Positions 33,144-62,157 of a stretch of DNA of 64,000 nucleotides are shown piece by piece (positions within the stretch are counted from its first letter, which is position 1; the number at the start of each line of letters is the position of its first letter). The translations under genes and the position numbers were made by a program. Source of the stretch: Neisseriaceae bacterium ESL0693 (GTDB lineage: Bacteria > Pseudomonadota > Gammaproteobacteria > Burkholderiales > Neisseriaceae); contig JAQTIE010000013.1 of NCBI GenBank assembly GCA_029433475.1, positions 62,001-126,000 on the forward strand, in the 5' to 3' direction. The notes under the pieces were generated by a model. That model did no database searches. It was not told the origin of the DNA and was given only the letters and a program-made list of their open reading frames with translations.

Positions 33144-33607
33144 AATTCAGACATATGTAACAACATACATCAATAAATCCAAATACCTTTAAAGAGAGGC
33201 AAGTACAATCTATATAATCAGATAAAATAGTAGATATTATGTGATTATGATGAAATTAATTTCACGTCTTAATGAGAAGTCATCTTTAATTATTGTGCTA
33301 TTGTGTTTCATAAGTGGTTATTAATCAAGTATATGCTGTTATATGTTATTCCGGCCATTTGGCAGGCAACATTTAAATTTATTATTTTAATGATTTATAA
33401 TCAAAACTATTATAAAATGCCGTAAACATGAATAAAAACTATTTTCATACCAAAATTAAATTATCTACGAGAATACGATATTACCCATAGATAACCATTT
33501 CATGTCTATAAAACATACAGCTTACACCAATGCATAACCATATAAATAGACTGGGTTAAAGATTTTTAACCCAGATTATTCTGCTATATTCATAATAGGA
33601 TTTTAAC
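33144..33607. other. AT-rich intergenic region between ybeY and the roadblock operon
   Basis: This 464-bp region lies downstream of the minus-strand roadblock operon and upstream of ybeY. It holds the terminator at 33551-33574 and presumably the ybeY promoter. A 25-codon frame at 33247-33324 with a hydrophobic stretch lacks a ribosome binding site and was not called. Confidence 0.5.
33551..33574 (-). terminator. Terminator of the roadblock/GTPase operon
   Basis: CTGGGTTAAA and TTTAACCCAG pair around a four-base loop, 33 bp beyond the last gene of the operon. The stretch after it on the minus strand is T-rich (TCTATTTATA). Confidence 0.8.
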
Positions 33608-33973
33608 TTAATTCAATATATCAACAACACTGCGAGCAGCACGGCGCGCGTCCAACAAAATCAGACCCAATTTGGCGCCTTCATTTGCAGTTACTGCCAA
33701 TACATTGGTATCACCAGCCTGAATGAGTAAAATATAGCCATGTTTACCTTTAACCATCACCTGCTCCAACTGATCACATTGCAACTCACGTGAGGTACGA
33801 TTACCCAGAGCCAGTAATGCCGCAGCCATAGCACCTACACGATCAGGATCAACACCGTTTGGTAATAAAGTGGCTACAGGTAAACCATCAGTAGAAATTA
33901 CGGCAGAAGCAGTAATGTCAGCCGAAGAGCTGTTTAAATCGCTTAATACCGAAACCAGTAATTGTTCTTGCAT
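33608..33973 (-). CDS. Roadblock/LC7 domain protein
   Basis: The 121-residue protein is a single roadblock/LC7 domain: SAVISTDGLPVATLLPNGVDPDRVGAMAAALLALG at about residues 23-57, then MVKGKHGYILLIQAGDTNVLAVTA and GLILLDARRAARSVVDIL. Domains of this kind dimerise and act as partners or GTPase-activating proteins of small Ras-like GTPases, as MglB does for MglA, or sit in conservon operons as CvnB. It is the last gene of a five-gene operon containing such a GTPase. A partnership is therefore likely but is inferred. Confidence 0.9.
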   Translation of the reverse strand: MQEQLLVSVLSDLNSSSADITASAVISTDGLPVATLLPNGVDPDRVGAMAAALLALGNRTSRELQCDQLEQVMVKGKHGYILLIQAGDTNVLAVTANEGAKLGLILLDARRAARSVVDILN

Positions 33974-33996
33974 CTTAATATCTTTCCTATTGATTA

Positions 33997-34656
33997 TTAT
34001 TCATCTATTACATGAATGTCTTCACCAGCCAATACATATAGCCCGCGTACCAGCGTTACAAATGCTTCACTATTCAGTAAGGGCATGCCGGCAGTTACCA
34101 GAATATTCTTCGCACTTCCAATGTATAAAGGGAAAAATGTCAGTTCACTTTGTCCGGTAGGATCACAAATGCCTACTGCATTATTGTAAATATTAAGGTT
34201 ATTTTTAATAAGCAGACTATGCTTTTCAGATAAACGGGTAGCTTCATTGGCTAGGTTGGCCACTTCTTCTGCTGTCTCATGATTAAAGCCGACATTTGCA
34301 AAATAAAAGCCGTCCTGATCTACCAATAATGCGCGATGGCTATCAGAAAGCTGTCCCAGAATATCCTCAAATGCATCCGAAGTTACTTTAATTAACTGGG
34401 AACTCGGGGTTGTCTCACCATACAAAAACTCAAGTCTTTGTAAGCGATAAAGTAAATTCAGTGCAGTATGGGTATCATCTGTCTCTGCCCATTTTTTCAG
34501 ACGTTCATCAGATAATACATCATTAATATCTGCCTGCAATAGATTGGCCAATAGCTTACGGCTACCACTACTGCTTTTGCTAGAGACAGCATAAAAAGCA
34601 CCAGCAGGGGTTACTTTCGGATACAGATCATCGTGTAACAGTAATGTAGAGTCCAT
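33997..34656 (-). CDS. Roadblock-like protein of the GTPase operon
   Basis: The 219-residue protein has no recognised domain in its first half, a helical stretch with TALNLLYRLQRLEFLYG near residue 68. The C-terminal half (about 95-219) looks like a diverged roadblock/profilin-like fold: SHRALLVDQDGFYFANVGF, then EEVANLANEATRLSEKH and NILVTAGMPLLNSEAFVTLVRGL. It lies 6 bp after the GTPase gene and 23 bp before the plain roadblock gene, so all three are translated from one message. It may be a second subunit of the regulator. Confidence 0.65.
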   Translation of the reverse strand: MDSTLLLHDDLYPKVTPAGAFYAVSSKSSSGSRKLLANLLQADINDVLSDERLKKWAETDDTHTALNLLYRLQRLEFLYGETTPSSQLIKVTSDAFEDILGQLSDSHRALLVDQDGFYFANVGFNHETAEEVANLANEATRLSEKHSLLIKNNLNIYNNAVGICDPTGQSELTFFPLYIGSAKNILVTAGMPLLNSEAFVTLVRGLYVLAGEDIHVIDE

Positions 34657-34662
34657 ACTGAT

Positions 34663-35199
34663 TTAACCTTCCAAGCCCGGATCAATGGAATAAAGCATTG
34701 CGGTGACCAATTGTTTAACATCATTTTCATCACGGGCATCAACTTCAAACACAGGTACATTCAGTTTATGCTGTGCCAAATATTGCTGATAAACTTCTAC
34801 CCCAGGCTGGGGATGCAAATCCATCTTGGTCACACCAACAACCACAGGAGCGTCATGCAGTAAGTCATGAAACGAAGTCAGGAAAAATTTTAAATCTTTA
34901 AGCGGATTCGGACGGGTGTTATCCAAAAGCAGAATCAAGCCCATACTGCCTTTACTCAGAATACCCCACATGAAATCAAAACGCTCTTGTCCTGGCGTAC
35001 CATATAAGTGAACTTTAGTATTTTCATCCAGACGAATAACACCATAGTCCATAGCCACAGTAGTATAACCCTTACGATCCTGGGTCATATCTGAAGCACT
35101 GGCGTCTGTCTGAACAGGTGGATCATCGGACAATGCCGCGATGGCAGTGGTTTTACCCACGCCAACCGGGCCGGTAAAAATAATTTTATTTTCAATCAT
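34663..35199 (-). CDS. Small Ras-like GTPase, COG2229 type
   Basis: The 178-residue protein carries the P-loop GPVGVGKT at residues 10-17, the switch II motif YGTPGQERFDFMWG near 66-79 and the base-recognition motif TKMD near 126-129. The G3 aspartate of DxxG is replaced (GTPG), and G4 has Thr for Asn; both are normal for the COG2229 / CvnD-like branch. GTPases of this branch pair with roadblock proteins to form polarity or signalling switches. Neighbours include two roadblock-type genes and a receiver-like gene. Confidence 0.88.
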   Translation of the reverse strand: MIENKIIFTGPVGVGKTTAIAALSDDPPVQTDASASDMTQDRKGYTTVAMDYGVIRLDENTKVHLYGTPGQERFDFMWGILSKGSMGLILLLDNTRPNPLKDLKFFLTSFHDLLHDAPVVVGVTKMDLHPQPGVEVYQQYLAQHKLNVPVFEVDARDENDVKQLVTAMLYSIDPGLEG

Positions 35200-35217
35200 G
35201 ATTACTCCCTGTAGGTG

Positions 35218-36375
35218 TTAATTGCCACGTAGCCGACCTATCAAACGCGATAATAAACCCTTAGGTTTAGCTGCATCGTCACTAACATTTTCTGAATCCT
35301 GATCTACACGTACAGATTTGGTCGGAATCTGCTGATCTTTCCGGCTCAGAACCATATCCTGCTCTTTCGATAACACAGACTGGCCTACTGGCTGCTCAAT
35401 AGCTAAAGAACCTATTGCATAAGTGGCCGCAATATAATTCAATATATTTTCTAAAGTAACAGGTAATAACTTATATAGCGTGTTTAACGCTACTGGTGAT
35501 TTGACCAGAAAGGCTGACAGGCGCATTGATTCAGGTAAATAAGCCAGACGGGTCATATTAGGCCAGGTTTTCAGGCGTAACATTGTTTCTGGCGTGATAG
35601 GCTCAATCAAACGGCCACGTGCTGTCCAGATGGCCAGCTGCCAGATACAGGCTTGAATAGAAAGTTTTGCTTTCTCATGTAGATTTGCCGTAGCCGGAAC
35701 ATGACGGGTTTGCCATTCCTGCTCCGTATGTGCACATAATTGATACAGCTCATCATGAGTAGCAGTTAATAAAACTTTTTTGATGGATGGAAAAACAATC
35801 AGTACAGGCTTATGGTTTACAATAATAGCTGTATCCTCTTCCTGTTCCGTCAGTTGTCTTACCTTATCAAATAAAGTGCCTTTTGTATTAAATCGTACAA
35901 TAACTTTAGCTTGTTGATGCTCATGAGCAGGATGCTTACTCTCTGCAGCCACGGGTTTGGCCTGATCTGGTACTTTTTGTACAGTTTCAGCCTGCTCGGC
36001 CGGTTCTGGTTTAGCCTGCTCTCCATCAGCCACCCAGATACCATTACCTTGCTGCAAATTACGCAAATGAGTAAACAATGTATTAAACTGAATGGGTTTT
36101 GCCAAATAAGGTGCTGTAAAAGCAGGAGGATTTACTGAGAAAAATATAATTTTCGCATCAGGAAACCGTTGTCGTAACTGCAGCCACGCATCCTTATTTT
36201 CTGCATTATCACCATCCATTAGTACCAAATCGGGGGTGTCGTTTTCTGTCACTAATGTATAATTAACACTATGGTACATTTTAAATGCCATACGCAACAT
36301 AGCTGTCTGACGATCATCCACATCGACGAGCAAAATATTGGCAGTTTTTACTTTAGGTATTGTATCGTTCATCAT
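35218..36375 (-). CDS. Receiver-like domain protein of the GTPase operon
   Basis: The 385-residue protein starts with a degenerate response-regulator receiver (about residues 10-115): NILLVDVDDRQTAML as the acidic pocket, DLVLMDGDN as the phosphoacceptor strand and APYLAKPIQFNTLF with the conserved Lys-Pro. A charged, low-complexity linker (about 118-160) follows. The C-terminal part has a helical block with WTARGRLIEPITPE, LKTWPNMTRL and several leucine-rich helices ending near LNYIAATYAIGS. No enzymatic motif was seen. It overlaps the TPR gene by four bases (ATGA) and lies 18 bp ahead of the GTPase gene. Function unknown; an adaptor is plausible. Confidence 0.65.
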   Translation of the reverse strand: MMNDTIPKVKTANILLVDVDDRQTAMLRMAFKMYHSVNYTLVTENDTPDLVLMDGDNAENKDAWLQLRQRFPDAKIIFFSVNPPAFTAPYLAKPIQFNTLFTHLRNLQQGNGIWVADGEQAKPEPAEQAETVQKVPDQAKPVAAESKHPAHEHQQAKVIVRFNTKGTLFDKVRQLTEQEEDTAIIVNHKPVLIVFPSIKKVLLTATHDELYQLCAHTEQEWQTRHVPATANLHEKAKLSIQACIWQLAIWTARGRLIEPITPETMLRLKTWPNMTRLAYLPESMRLSAFLVKSPVALNTLYKLLPVTLENILNYIAATYAIGSLAIEQPVGQSVLSKEQDMVLSRKDQQIPTKSVRVDQDSENVSDDAAKPKGLLSRLIGRLRGN

Positions 36376-37811
36376 TGATTTTGCACACCATCGTGGTTAA
36401 TACGTTTCAACAATTGACTCATGGCCAGTGCCACTTCTTCTGGTGGCGTTTTAATTTTCGTACGGATTATCTGTAACATTTTTTGCAATCGTGTCCATTC
36501 TTCCGCACGTTCATATAAATCAAACAATGTAATATAAAGCTGAGATTCCTGCGGATATTTCAATACAGATTCCTCTAACAAATCCAGAGCCTGATCCAGC
36601 TGACCAAAGGTCAACAGCGACTCAGAATCTCGCAGAATATGATCTATTGGTGTTTCCGGGGTATTGGTATTATTCTGTGCATCTTCCACTAAAGGCAGTC
36701 TTCGCGCTTTTAGTGCACTGCTATTCATGGGCAAATAACCCTGAGTTACACCGATATCGCGCAATATCTTCTCATTCGGCTTACTTTCCAGTTCATCAAA
36801 CATGGGGTGTACGCCCATATTATACCCCCAACCCAACATGCGCTCTTTAACTAAATTACCATATTGACCCAGAGTATAGTATAAACGCCATAAGTGCTGC
36901 GCAAATACATTGATATTCTTGTAACGGTAATCCAATGCCAATGCGTCAATAATCAGGCTGGCAGGCTTATTTGATGTTTCAATGGCTCTATTAAGACAGC
37001 GAAGGGCTGCTTCATACGGTAACTGATCTTTCAGCAATGCATAGCTTTTTTCTGGTTTAGAAAAACTCAGCAGCACATCACGTTCATCACCATGAACCTG
37101 AAAATACCCTACATTGCCTTCAATCAGTAATTTACGTTTAGATTTAATTTCTTTATCTTTTTGGGCAGCGGGACTTAGTTTGGTATTGGTCTCCGGTTCG
37201 GGTGGCAATTTGTCTTCAACACCAATCTCTTTATCTGTTTCATGTACATCCCAGTGCAGCAGATCTTCTGCTAATACCCGCAATCCCAGATGATTGGCAT
37301 CAATCACCAGCCCCTGACGAATGAGCTCTTGCAGAGTGGATTTATCCAGATAGGTACGATAGTGATCAATGACTGTAGCCAGCTGATCTTGATTTTTGGC
37401 CGCCAGACATAAATCCGCCAGCTCGCGTACCAGTATCTGAGTAGCTTCGGCAGCCTGCCCTTTGATATTGGCGCTCAGATAGGCAGACAGGGAATCAGCT
37501 GCTTTTTGAAAATAACCAAACTGTTTGTAAACCTTAAATTCAGTCAGGTGATCGACGGAAGCAACCGACACGGTTGCCTTGTCTGAAGGCTGAGACTGCC
37601 AGTCCCACTCTTCTTCCTCTTCAGCCGCAGACGAATTCTGCTTGGCCGCATCTGTTTGAGACGCATCTTTACTCTCGACATTGGCTTTTTTCGGCTTTTG
37701 TCGTGATGCTTTACGTTTTTTTGACACTCCTGCGCTACCTTGTCGTTTTTTAAGAACCAGCAAAACGACCAGTAGAACCACCAAGAGAGGAATAATAATC
37801 AAAATATCCAT
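36372..37811 (-). CDS. Membrane-anchored TPR protein, FimV-like in layout
   Basis: The 479-residue protein begins with one membrane helix (residues 2-20), then a strongly basic stretch (KKRKASRQKPKK) and an acidic patch (SAAEEEEEWDW), so the body is probably cytoplasmic. TPR-like helices near the C-terminus (about 390-465) read SLLTFGQLDQALDLLEESVLKYPQES, a FimV-like arrangement. It is the first gene of the operon and may anchor the GTPase module at the membrane. This layout is what is seen; links to type IV pili are inference. Confidence 0.6.
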   Translation of the reverse strand: MDILIIIPLLVVLLVVLLVLKKRQGSAGVSKKRKASRQKPKKANVESKDASQTDAAKQNSSAAEEEEEWDWQSQPSDKATVSVASVDHLTEFKVYKQFGYFQKAADSLSAYLSANIKGQAAEATQILVRELADLCLAAKNQDQLATVIDHYRTYLDKSTLQELIRQGLVIDANHLGLRVLAEDLLHWDVHETDKEIGVEDKLPPEPETNTKLSPAAQKDKEIKSKRKLLIEGNVGYFQVHGDERDVLLSFSKPEKSYALLKDQLPYEAALRCLNRAIETSNKPASLIIDALALDYRYKNINVFAQHLWRLYYTLGQYGNLVKERMLGWGYNMGVHPMFDELESKPNEKILRDIGVTQGYLPMNSSALKARRLPLVEDAQNNTNTPETPIDHILRDSESLLTFGQLDQALDLLEESVLKYPQESQLYITLFDLYERAEEWTRLQKMLQIIRTKIKTPPEEVALAMSQLLKRINHDGVQNQ

Positions 37812-37952
37812 AGCTTATACCTCTCCAGACAGATATTTAGTGCGCAATTGTATATTTAAGTGCACGTTTTTCATTTACTCTGTAATGTTTCACATACAAT
37901 TATCAAAATATTTTCCTATTTTACCTGACCTTGGAAAAATTCGCTAGTTTAT

Positions 37953-39263
37953 TTATTTGATTATAGGCAATACTCCTTTGGGAAATAGCTGCCAGACATA
38001 GCCAGTATGTTTCATTTTGCCGGCCAGCCGGCCGGCTGCATCGCCATATCCCCAGAAGTAATCAACCCGGACAGCACCATTAATGGCACTTCCTGTATCT
38101 TGCGCCATAATTAATTTATTGAGGCCACGTCCGTTTTCCGGATGGGTAGTGGCCAGAAATAACGGTGCACCCAGCTGGATAAAATGGCGATCAACGGCAC
38201 CGGAGTATTCACCGGTTAATGCTACACCCAGCGCGCCTACCGGACCCTCTGCCGGATCGGTTGAAGCCTGAAAAAACACATAGCTGGGATTTTGGCCTAA
38301 AACTTCAGCCAGCTTATCCGGATGTTGCTGCAGCCAGAGTTTAATTCCCTGCATGGATGTTTGCGCTAAGGGAAGATAGCCTTTATTGGCCATATATTTA
38401 CCTATAGATACATAAGCATAATCATTTTTATCGGCAAAGCCAAGACGAATCATCTGGCCAGTCGGGGTTTTCAATCGACCAGAACCTTGTACATGCAGGA
38501 AAAATAATTCTACCGGATCATTGGCATATCCCAAGACAGGTGCTTTGCCATTCAGCGCGCCGGCATTAATCTGGGCACGCGTATAGTAAGGCACAAACTG
38601 ATTACCGCTGATGCGTCCTTTTAATGCTTTGGTTTTGGCATTAATCGGAAACGCACTCAGGTTGGCACTATAAACACCATTTGCGGCAATAATACCGCTA
38701 TGCTGACCCGTTAATTGAATACGTACTGTGCCCTGACGCTGGCCGGTAGATAAGGGGACAGAAATAAAATCGTCAGGCAGGCCATAAATCGGAAACCGTG
38801 CCTGAGCCGTTTGGTAACGGTCACCCAGCAGCATGGGTTCATAATAACCGGTAACCATACCGTCCAGACGGCCATTTTGTGCGATTTGCCATGGCGTGAA
38901 ATAGTGTTCAAAGAAATGCTTGGCCTGCCGGTCGGTTTCATGAGTCTGACTGGCCTGCTGACAAACCATCTGCCATGCGGGTTGTACCTGAAGCTTCTGA
39001 CAGCTTTTCTTGAATGCACGTAAACTCTGGCTGAATGGCTGCTGTGACCATTGTGGCAAATCAGTAAAAGAAACCACTTGATAACGCACGCCTTGACGAT
39101 TGGCATCATGAACATAGTGTAACGGCAAGGCCTGGCCGGATGGTATTTGCTGGCCGGACAGAGGAATAAGAACAGATGGGCGTGGCGTGGATTTATGAAG
39201 AGTACAACTTGTCAGCAATAAGGCAATCAGACAGACTGCCGCATAAATTTTCATGATTTTCAT
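37953..39263 (-). CDS. mltA: Membrane-bound lytic murein transglycosylase A
   Basis: MltA cleaves the glycan strand of peptidoglycan. The start MKIMKIYAAVCLIALLLTSC gives a lipoprotein signal with lipobox LLTSC, so the product is anchored to a membrane by its cysteine. The MltA domain shows DGMVTGYYEPMLLGDR, and the C-terminal 3D domain has QDTGSAINGAVRVDYFWGYGDAAGRLAGKMKHTG (about 34 residues) with its conserved aspartates. A frame nine codons longer begins at 39290. It diverges from mutS across about 200 bp. Confidence 0.95.
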   Translation of the reverse strand: MKIMKIYAAVCLIALLLTSCTLHKSTPRPSVLIPLSGQQIPSGQALPLHYVHDANRQGVRYQVVSFTDLPQWSQQPFSQSLRAFKKSCQKLQVQPAWQMVCQQASQTHETDRQAKHFFEHYFTPWQIAQNGRLDGMVTGYYEPMLLGDRYQTAQARFPIYGLPDDFISVPLSTGQRQGTVRIQLTGQHSGIIAANGVYSANLSAFPINAKTKALKGRISGNQFVPYYTRAQINAGALNGKAPVLGYANDPVELFFLHVQGSGRLKTPTGQMIRLGFADKNDYAYVSIGKYMANKGYLPLAQTSMQGIKLWLQQHPDKLAEVLGQNPSYVFFQASTDPAEGPVGALGVALTGEYSGAVDRHFIQLGAPLFLATTHPENGRGLNKLIMAQDTGSAINGAVRVDYFWGYGDAAGRLAGKMKHTGYVWQLFPKGVLPIIK

Positions 39264-39466
39264 CAGCCAGATTCTCGGTAAAGGGATCAACGGATCAGTT
39301 ATTCAATGGCGTGTTATTATCGCAGGCATTACCGGTACAGAACAAGACAGATATTACATGCTGTTTTCAGTCAGAAAACTGGTCAGCCATGGCATAAACA
39401 CACTATGGCGACAATGGCATTCTGCTAAAATAGCGCTTTTCAGCCAGACAGATACATTTGGATACC

Positions 39467-61798: not shown

Positions 61799-62157
61799 AC
61801 CGAAATTCCATTCTTTGAGTTAAAAACATCGGATATCAGATAAATGCCATGTTATGTTATAACATTATCTGATTAAAATTAATGAACTTACCAAGCCATC
61901 AATATTCACAACATTATTTAAGTAGAACCACCATTAAAACTGTGGTTGATAAAGCAAAAGCTTCAGGAGAGACTGATGACAGTAAGACACCATAACACCT
62001 GAAAAGGCATTCATGACGACTATTTCCCCTGTCTCAGCATTAAAACAGCCATTCAACCAGACAAGTGATTGCCAGACTGAAATGACCATAAAAGATTGAA
62101 TGCATCATTCAATAGGCCGCTATTATTCCTGAAAGTGCTTAAATTGTCAACACTTTT
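61799..62157. other. Intergenic region between rlpA and comF
   Basis: The 359-bp region lies downstream of comF and upstream of rlpA. A weak hairpin, AAAGTG / CACTTT around 62135-62158, follows the comF stop. No gene was seen. Confidence 0.45.

Follow-up and report, generated by a model that had tools for sequence, protein, structure and literature searches.

What is controlled by a compact operon in which a Ras-like GTPase is combined with two roadblock proteins, a receiver-like protein and a tetratricopeptide repeat (TPR) protein in a member of the Neisseriaceae? The operon lies in a stretch of 64,000 nucleotides, here called the window (positions 62,001–126,000 of contig JAQTIE010000013.1 from Neisseriaceae bacterium ESL0693). 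An initial annotation had read it as five tightly packed genes on the minus strand, possibly a polarity or pilus-related switch that had not been described. The coordinates, the gaps of 23, 6 and 18 bp and the single 4-bp overlap were all borne out (Table 1). By its predicted proteins, the locus is a Group 3 MglA system of the two-MglB subtype, and it fairly probably encodes a switch by which a GTPase acts on type IV pili, with the TPR protein as anchor or effector. To our knowledge, Ras-like switches have been little studied in the Proteobacteria beyond Myxococcus and its kin, and little is clear about how members of the Neisseriaceae direct their type IV pili in the absence of a CheA pathway.

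The 178-residue protein is a P-loop GTPase (Pfam: ATP_bind_1, E value (E) 1.3e-15; Ras, E 2.2e-11), whose relatives in the PDB include MglA (E 4.9e-7), with eukaryotic Sec4/Rab chains scoring higher. It carries the motifs GPVGVGKT, TPGQ, TKMD and DAR, and residues T68-P69-G70-Q71, D154 and R156 are invariant in 22 of the 22 aligned GTPases. The Group 3 combination of PGQ in the G3 motif and DAR in the G5 motif is present, some other aligned GTPases reading DGR. The G4 motif keeps its lysine (TKMD) and varies in other members; Group 3 MglA proteins often lack this lysine (PMC4316618), and the MglA of Snodgrassella communis has been placed in the same group (PMC11112851). Among other genomes (numbered G, with contigs C and loci L; G000 is the genome of the window), the mglA match at G023:C13:40007-40536 (genus g5) is split over two frames and the gene may be broken, as in G051. 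Further MglA relatives at 44–52% identity are found in G058–G065 (genera g8 and g9), with more than one match in seven of these eight genomes.

The two MglB proteins differ in how clearly they can be recognized. MglB2 is a Robl_LC7 protein (Pfam, E 5.3e-17). MglB1, taken alone, stays below the Pfam cut-off for that family (16.1 versus 23 bits), but Robl_LC7 is recovered at E≤0.1 in 29 of its 45 relatives (best 1.5e-5). In the PDB, the family scores highest with CvnB5, a roadblock protein from a conservon (E 0.0085, over 56 positions). Among 11 profiles compared with MglB1, the roadblock profile ranks first, weakly (E 0.029), and the roadblock part would span approximately residues 95–190. Against this assignment stands the direct comparison of the MglB1 and MglB2 profiles, which gave no significant match above noise, and for this reason the roadblock fold of MglB1 is considered only probable. 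The annotated pair of a roadblock-like and a plain roadblock protein is therefore clear for MglB2 and, for MglB1, weaker and backed by its relatives and by CvnB5; with the same reservation, the two coupled MglB proteins of Group 3 appear to be present. A winged helix common to the N-terminal part of MglB1 and the C-terminal part of the receiver-like protein was also considered, and the profile comparison gave it no support.

The 385-residue receiver-like protein matched no Pfam family when searched alone. A profile of its family found 26 PDB chains at E≤1, the best being a response regulator (E 0.0014) and the others lying at 0.012 or weaker; by their names most are response regulators, and no other fold appears among these names. 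The receiver occupies approximately residues 8–112 and is followed by a linker and a conserved C-terminal region (about 155–330). Among 48 relatives, D54 is kept in 46, D56 and K93 in 47 each and P94 in all 48, with serine or threonine at column 80 in 40. The N-terminal acidic pair is eroded, column 20 being aspartate in 34 of the 48. The receiver assignment thus holds for the N-terminus, whereas the epithet “degenerate” was too strong, and the protein may still be phosphorylated.

Conservation of the block was followed in 80 named loci, the best 80 of at least 579 confirmed relatives gathered by the GTPase, 21 of the 80 being from the Neisseriaceae. The order TPR protein, receiver, MglA, MglB1, MglB2 is kept in 78, the two exceptions being a 3-kb fragment (L131) and a rearranged metagenome-assembled genome (MAG; L150). 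At the four junctions, gaps of at most 100 bp, measured from the first start codon, are found in 76, 77, 78 and 69 of these 78 loci. With the order conserved in all but two of the 80 loci, the predicted five-gene arrangement is not a product of chance. The block is conserved as had been supposed, with the GTPase and roadblock partners of an MglA/MglB-type switch, and the absence of a histidine kinase was confirmed, no such gene being found in 33608–37811.

Since TPR profiles can drift, the profile of the TPR protein was trained on the 21 Neisseriaceae loci alone and tested on 58 other loci. In 56 of them it matched the open reading frame (ORF) at the corresponding position (E<1e-3), and it matched no other ORF of these loci at E≤10. 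In 28 further gammaproteobacterial stretches, chosen from a class sample of 274 genomes and overlapping little with the 80 named loci (G331 is L134), a TPR gene is found in 13/13 stretches with MglB1 and in 0/15 without it. One of these 15, L241, says nothing on TPR absence because it ends about 1 kb upstream of mglA. By gene content, the system has the TPR gene as its constant fifth member. Given this distribution, Group 3 seems to split into a type with a TPR protein and two MglB proteins and a simpler receiver–MglA–MglB type, in agreement with the 1:2 and 1:1 systems described in PMC4316618.

The TPR protein itself has a hydrophobic stretch at approximately residues 4–22 (read from the sequence) and TPR regions beyond about residue 90; TPR_19 is matched at E≤0.1 by 25 of 26 relatives. 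The hydrophobic N-terminus is present in 39 of 41 long forms, which occur in Neisseriaceae, Chromobacteriaceae, Acidithiobacillus and others, and in none of 34 short forms, mostly from Methylococcales and Thiotrichales (by record title). Both forms align over 213 columns with an hhalign probability of 99.1. The label “FimV-like” proved not to be specific: the window protein matches no FimV and no SgmX model, and a separate FimV is encoded elsewhere in the same genome (FimV_core match at G000:C21:17657). Models matched among the 26 relatives are FimV_Cterm in 2 (best E 0.0065), the NCBIfam SgmX model in 5 (2e-6, the best overall), PilW in 5 and LapB in 12 (6.5e-6). In L070:7566-9010 (G012), the TPR gene match is split into two overlapping frames, a possible frameshift. 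In front of the operon sits an ORF at 37953–39290, which we take to be mltA. The gene NMB0035 is located close to mltA. Its product, meningococcal antigen P47 (PMC3088726), was considered as an identity for the TPR gene, and this was dropped, mltA being found beside the operon in only 8 of the 80 loci, none of them titled Neisseria.

The link to type IV pili comes from gene loss and from published work. In a sample of 83 Neisseriaceae genomes, mglA is missing in 13, and the same 13 have no roadblock match at all. A close PilT was defined as one with at least 76% identity to the PilT of the window's genome, best matches being either ≥76% or ≤64%. By this measure it is present in 68 of the 70 genomes with mglA versus 1 of the 13 without (Fisher 1.2e-11, uncorrected for kinship), and in 61 of 62 versus 1 of 9 when only genomes ≥90% complete and ≤5% contaminated are counted. 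As judged from these gene contents, mglA and PilT are lost together in the Neisseriaceae. An earlier count by the TIGR01420 profile (69/70 versus 1/13), whose threshold had been set after looking, was replaced by the search with the genome's own PilT because a paralog scores well on TIGR01420; G043 thereby became a genome with no close PilT. In the class sample, every one of the 50 genomes in which mglA is matched has a PilT-family match by profile at E 2.4e-125 or better, against a background of 232 of 274 genomes over the cut-off; for three of the 50 the mglA match is marginal (weaker than 1e-6). No match to the CheA dimerisation domain turned up in any of the 83 Neisseriaceae (control, 7 of 14), so no Pil-Chp-type kinase is seen in the family. 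The window's organism is itself a Snodgrassella, to judge by genomes of its genus (G068–G080) and by the named loci. The mgl operon of Snodgrassella was connected in 2024 with motility by type IV pili and with colonisation of the gut; mutation of mglB-3 was accompanied by changed motility flares and by better colonisation of a non-native bee, and re-read transposon sequencing (Tn-seq) data are said to show that all three mglB genes are beneficial (PMC11112851). The proposal of a pilus-related switch is thus upheld by the joint loss of mglA and PilT and by the tie of Snodgrassella mglB to type IV pilus motility.

A third roadblock gene is located far from the operon in the window's genome (G000:C25:42249-42611) and corresponds to the orphan mglB-3 of PMC11112851. 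Behind it come the genes of a PAS protein and of a binding protein of the PhnD type, the latter with no signal peptide visible by eye; the three genes lie at L061:1462-3234 (G000:C25). Another 22 Neisseriaceae genomes have a second roadblock gene that is not part of the operon (occasional weak matches in G061 and G063 excluded). Of these loci 13 were inspected, and 10 have adjoining PAS and PhnD-like genes; in L199 PAS stands beside the roadblock gene and the contig then ends, and L194 and L195 have neither. Elsewhere the pair is found within the mgl locus itself, in 27 of the 80 named loci, 24 of them with at most 200 bp between the pair and the end of mglB2. These loci come mostly from Methylococcales and Thiotrichales, with none among the 21 Neisseriaceae, and two loci (L104 and L151) have PhnD-like genes without PAS. 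In Methylotuvimicrobium buryatense 5G (L134), the five mgl genes, PAS and the PhnD-like gene all stand in one block. PAS was detected in 32 of the 83 Neisseriaceae, all 32 with an mglA match. In the class sample, 11 genomes have it at E<1e-50 and 10 of them have mglA (G228 is the exception); in nine such genomes besides the window's own, PAS is at most 1.8 kb from mglA. In a tree, the MglB-3 proteins cluster together and separately from the MglB2 rows (support 92/91), a provisional placement where long branches meet. The mgl locus of a Hydrogenophilus MAG (L104:5544-8914) has two mglB2 copies, three PhnD-like genes and no PAS match. The window's genome also holds a second PAS and PhnD-like pair with no adjoining roadblock gene (L237:2927-4203, G000:C23), and the pair is therefore not bound to Mgl in every case.

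These components can be arranged into a mechanism in which MglA would cycle between GTP and GDP and MglB1 and MglB2 would form the GTPase-activating side, promoting GTP hydrolysis. The receiver protein would be the input or the exchange factor by which the switch is turned, a part played in other systems by RomR/RomX or by exchange factors of the CvnC type. The TPR protein would bind MglA-GTP at the inner membrane as effector or anchor, like SgmX for the MglA of Myxococcus (PMC7519303). Type IV pilus activity would be the output, with PilT-mediated retraction or adhesion as the likeliest form, and the PAS–PhnD pair would serve as a second, detachable input that feeds a further signal through an MglB. 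In a family where no CheA was found, such a switch may replace the role of Pil-Chp known from Pseudomonas. A bolder version, in which all seven proteins (TPR, receiver, MglA, MglB1, MglB2, PAS and PhnD-like) form one Ras-type switch that senses an intracellular redox or small-molecule signal, sets pilus retraction through PilT and replaces the CheA-based Pil-Chp pathway in the Neisseriaceae, is speculative and rather doubtful.

Several observations weigh against the pilus switch and its sensory arm. Among 75 scored relatives, 34 have a short TPR protein that lacks the hydrophobic N-terminus, so membrane anchoring is not essential to the system. G009 has PilT without mglA; G043 and G051, the latter with a split gene, have mglA without a close PilT, and G061, 58% complete, was counted as bearing mglA only by an MglA relative at 48% identity. 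The losses of mglA are clustered, with four of the 13 genomes in g4 and two in g7, and the genomes are thus not independent; four of the 13 are less than 90% complete. PilQ is matched in 11 of the 13, and the link of mglA is therefore to PilT and not to every pilus gene. Concerning the PAS–PhnD pair, several Thiotrichales mgl loci are without it (e.g., L142, L147, L152 and L158), and in genus g5, taken as Neisseria, PAS is found in only 3 of 46 genomes. At E≤1e-35, the cut-off of the search itself, the PAS query matches 54 of the 274 class genomes, only 24 of which have mglA, many of the matches lying inside larger proteins, and the 1e-50 threshold was drawn after looking. Neisseria are often cocci, which sits badly with a role in polarity, and the protein contacts, GTPase activity and phenotype are all predictions from sequence.

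Other outputs were weighed against this background. The C-terminal part of the receiver protein contains a strongly conserved block (W245, G254, W271-P272 and R276), and among the 48 relatives PF0610-like_N, which we take to be a winged-helix family, is matched in two (best E 0.013) and MarR_2 and HTH_20 in one each, the winged-helix and helix-turn-helix models being matched at E 0.013–0.075. These features recall the transcriptional switch that Wuichet and Sogaard-Andersen suggested for Group 3, in which this winged helix would bind DNA once released by MglA; in their Phyre2 model, part of the C-terminal region of the Group 3 receiver protein is called a winged helix (PMC4316618). These matches are few and weak, however, no DNA-binding protein was matched separately by this part in the profile search of the PDB, and the pairing with a membrane TPR protein and PilT speaks for direct action. 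A transcriptional output is accordingly regarded as unlikely.

The loss of mglA together with PilT inside one family also argues against control of cell polarity or division geometry, rather than of pili as such, in the manner of the Group 1 MglA of Myxococcus, as does the retention of the system in often coccoid Neisseria. MglA and MglB are indeed polarity proteins in Myxococcus (PMC11112851, PMC3441718), and we grant this role a small chance here. The conservon-like alternative, a signalling module with a metabolic or stress output to which pili would be incidental, draws on the MglA- and MglB-type parts common to actinobacterial conservons and on the PAS and PhnD-like partners, which suggest metabolite or redox sensing. 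It has to contend with the PilT correlation and with an operon in which neither a histidine kinase nor a CvnC gene was found, and appears very improbable. A direct action of the Mgl switch on type IV pili is thus the reading we prefer.

Table 1. Features of the mgl operon in the window
Feature	Coordinates	Strand	Evidence
Membrane-anchored TPR protein, 479 aa	36372..37811	minus	Hydrophobic N-terminus and TPR matches
Receiver-like protein, 385 aa	35218..36375	minus	Family profile versus PDB response regulators
MglA, small Ras-like GTPase, 178 aa	34663..35199	minus	Pfam and PDB matches, motifs
MglB1, divergent roadblock-like protein, 219 aa	33997..34656	minus	Robl_LC7 matches of relatives, CvnB5 match
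MglB2, plain roadblock/LC7 protein, 121 aa	33608..33973	minus	Robl_LC7, E 5.3e-17
Terminator-like hairpin 3' of the operon	33551..33574	minus	Hairpin scan; scores on both strands

The single terminator annotated behind the operon was found as a hairpin with a 10-bp stem past the last gene. It scores on both strands, and five terminator-like sites occur in 33300–38200, compared with a mean of 3.7 in shuffled sequence, so the hairpin is there and its function as the terminator of the operon is plausible, not proven.

The comparison yields parts that can be tested, namely a TPR partner wherever MglB1 was found, a PAS–PhnD sensor pair and a tie to PilT, and Snodgrassella, a bee symbiont already used in colonisation work, offers a convenient host. 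The system as such had been described, contrary to the initial annotation: the combination of receiver-like protein, MglA and MglB has been known as Group 3 MglA since 2014 (PMC4316618), and work on the mgl operon of Snodgrassella followed in 2024 (PMC11112851). Group 3 systems share with the locus the receiver-like protein, MglA and one or two MglB proteins, and occur in beta- and gamma-Proteobacteria including Neisseria; in the main text of PMC4316618, as far as available, neither “TPR” nor “tetratricopeptide” occurs, and no PAS–PhnD pair is named for Group 3. The S. communis operon agrees in genus, in one mglA and two coupled mglB genes, in an orphan mglB-3 and in the link to pili and colonisation, whereas the accessible main text of PMC11112851 contains no “tetratricopeptide”, “TPR”, “PAS domain” or “phosphonate”. 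A literature search on MglB and tetratricopeptide in gammaproteobacteria found no paper, most subscription papers and supplements lying outside the search. Actinobacterial conservons (CvnA–D; PMC13343842) likewise place MglB-type and MglA-type proteins in a tight operon, with a histidine kinase, CvnA, and CvnC where the operon described here has a receiver and a TPR protein. The closest functional parallel for the latter is found in Myxococcus xanthus, where MglA acts with the TPR protein SgmX in type IV pilus formation (PMC7519303); the likeness extends to the SgmX-model matches among the TPR relatives, but not to the window protein itself, and the generic LapB model matches more of these relatives. 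The system itself is therefore already known, and what is added here is some new facts on its composition that are absent from the main-text passages of PMC4316618 and PMC11112851: the constant TPR gene, the PAS–PhnD arm and the joint loss with PilT.

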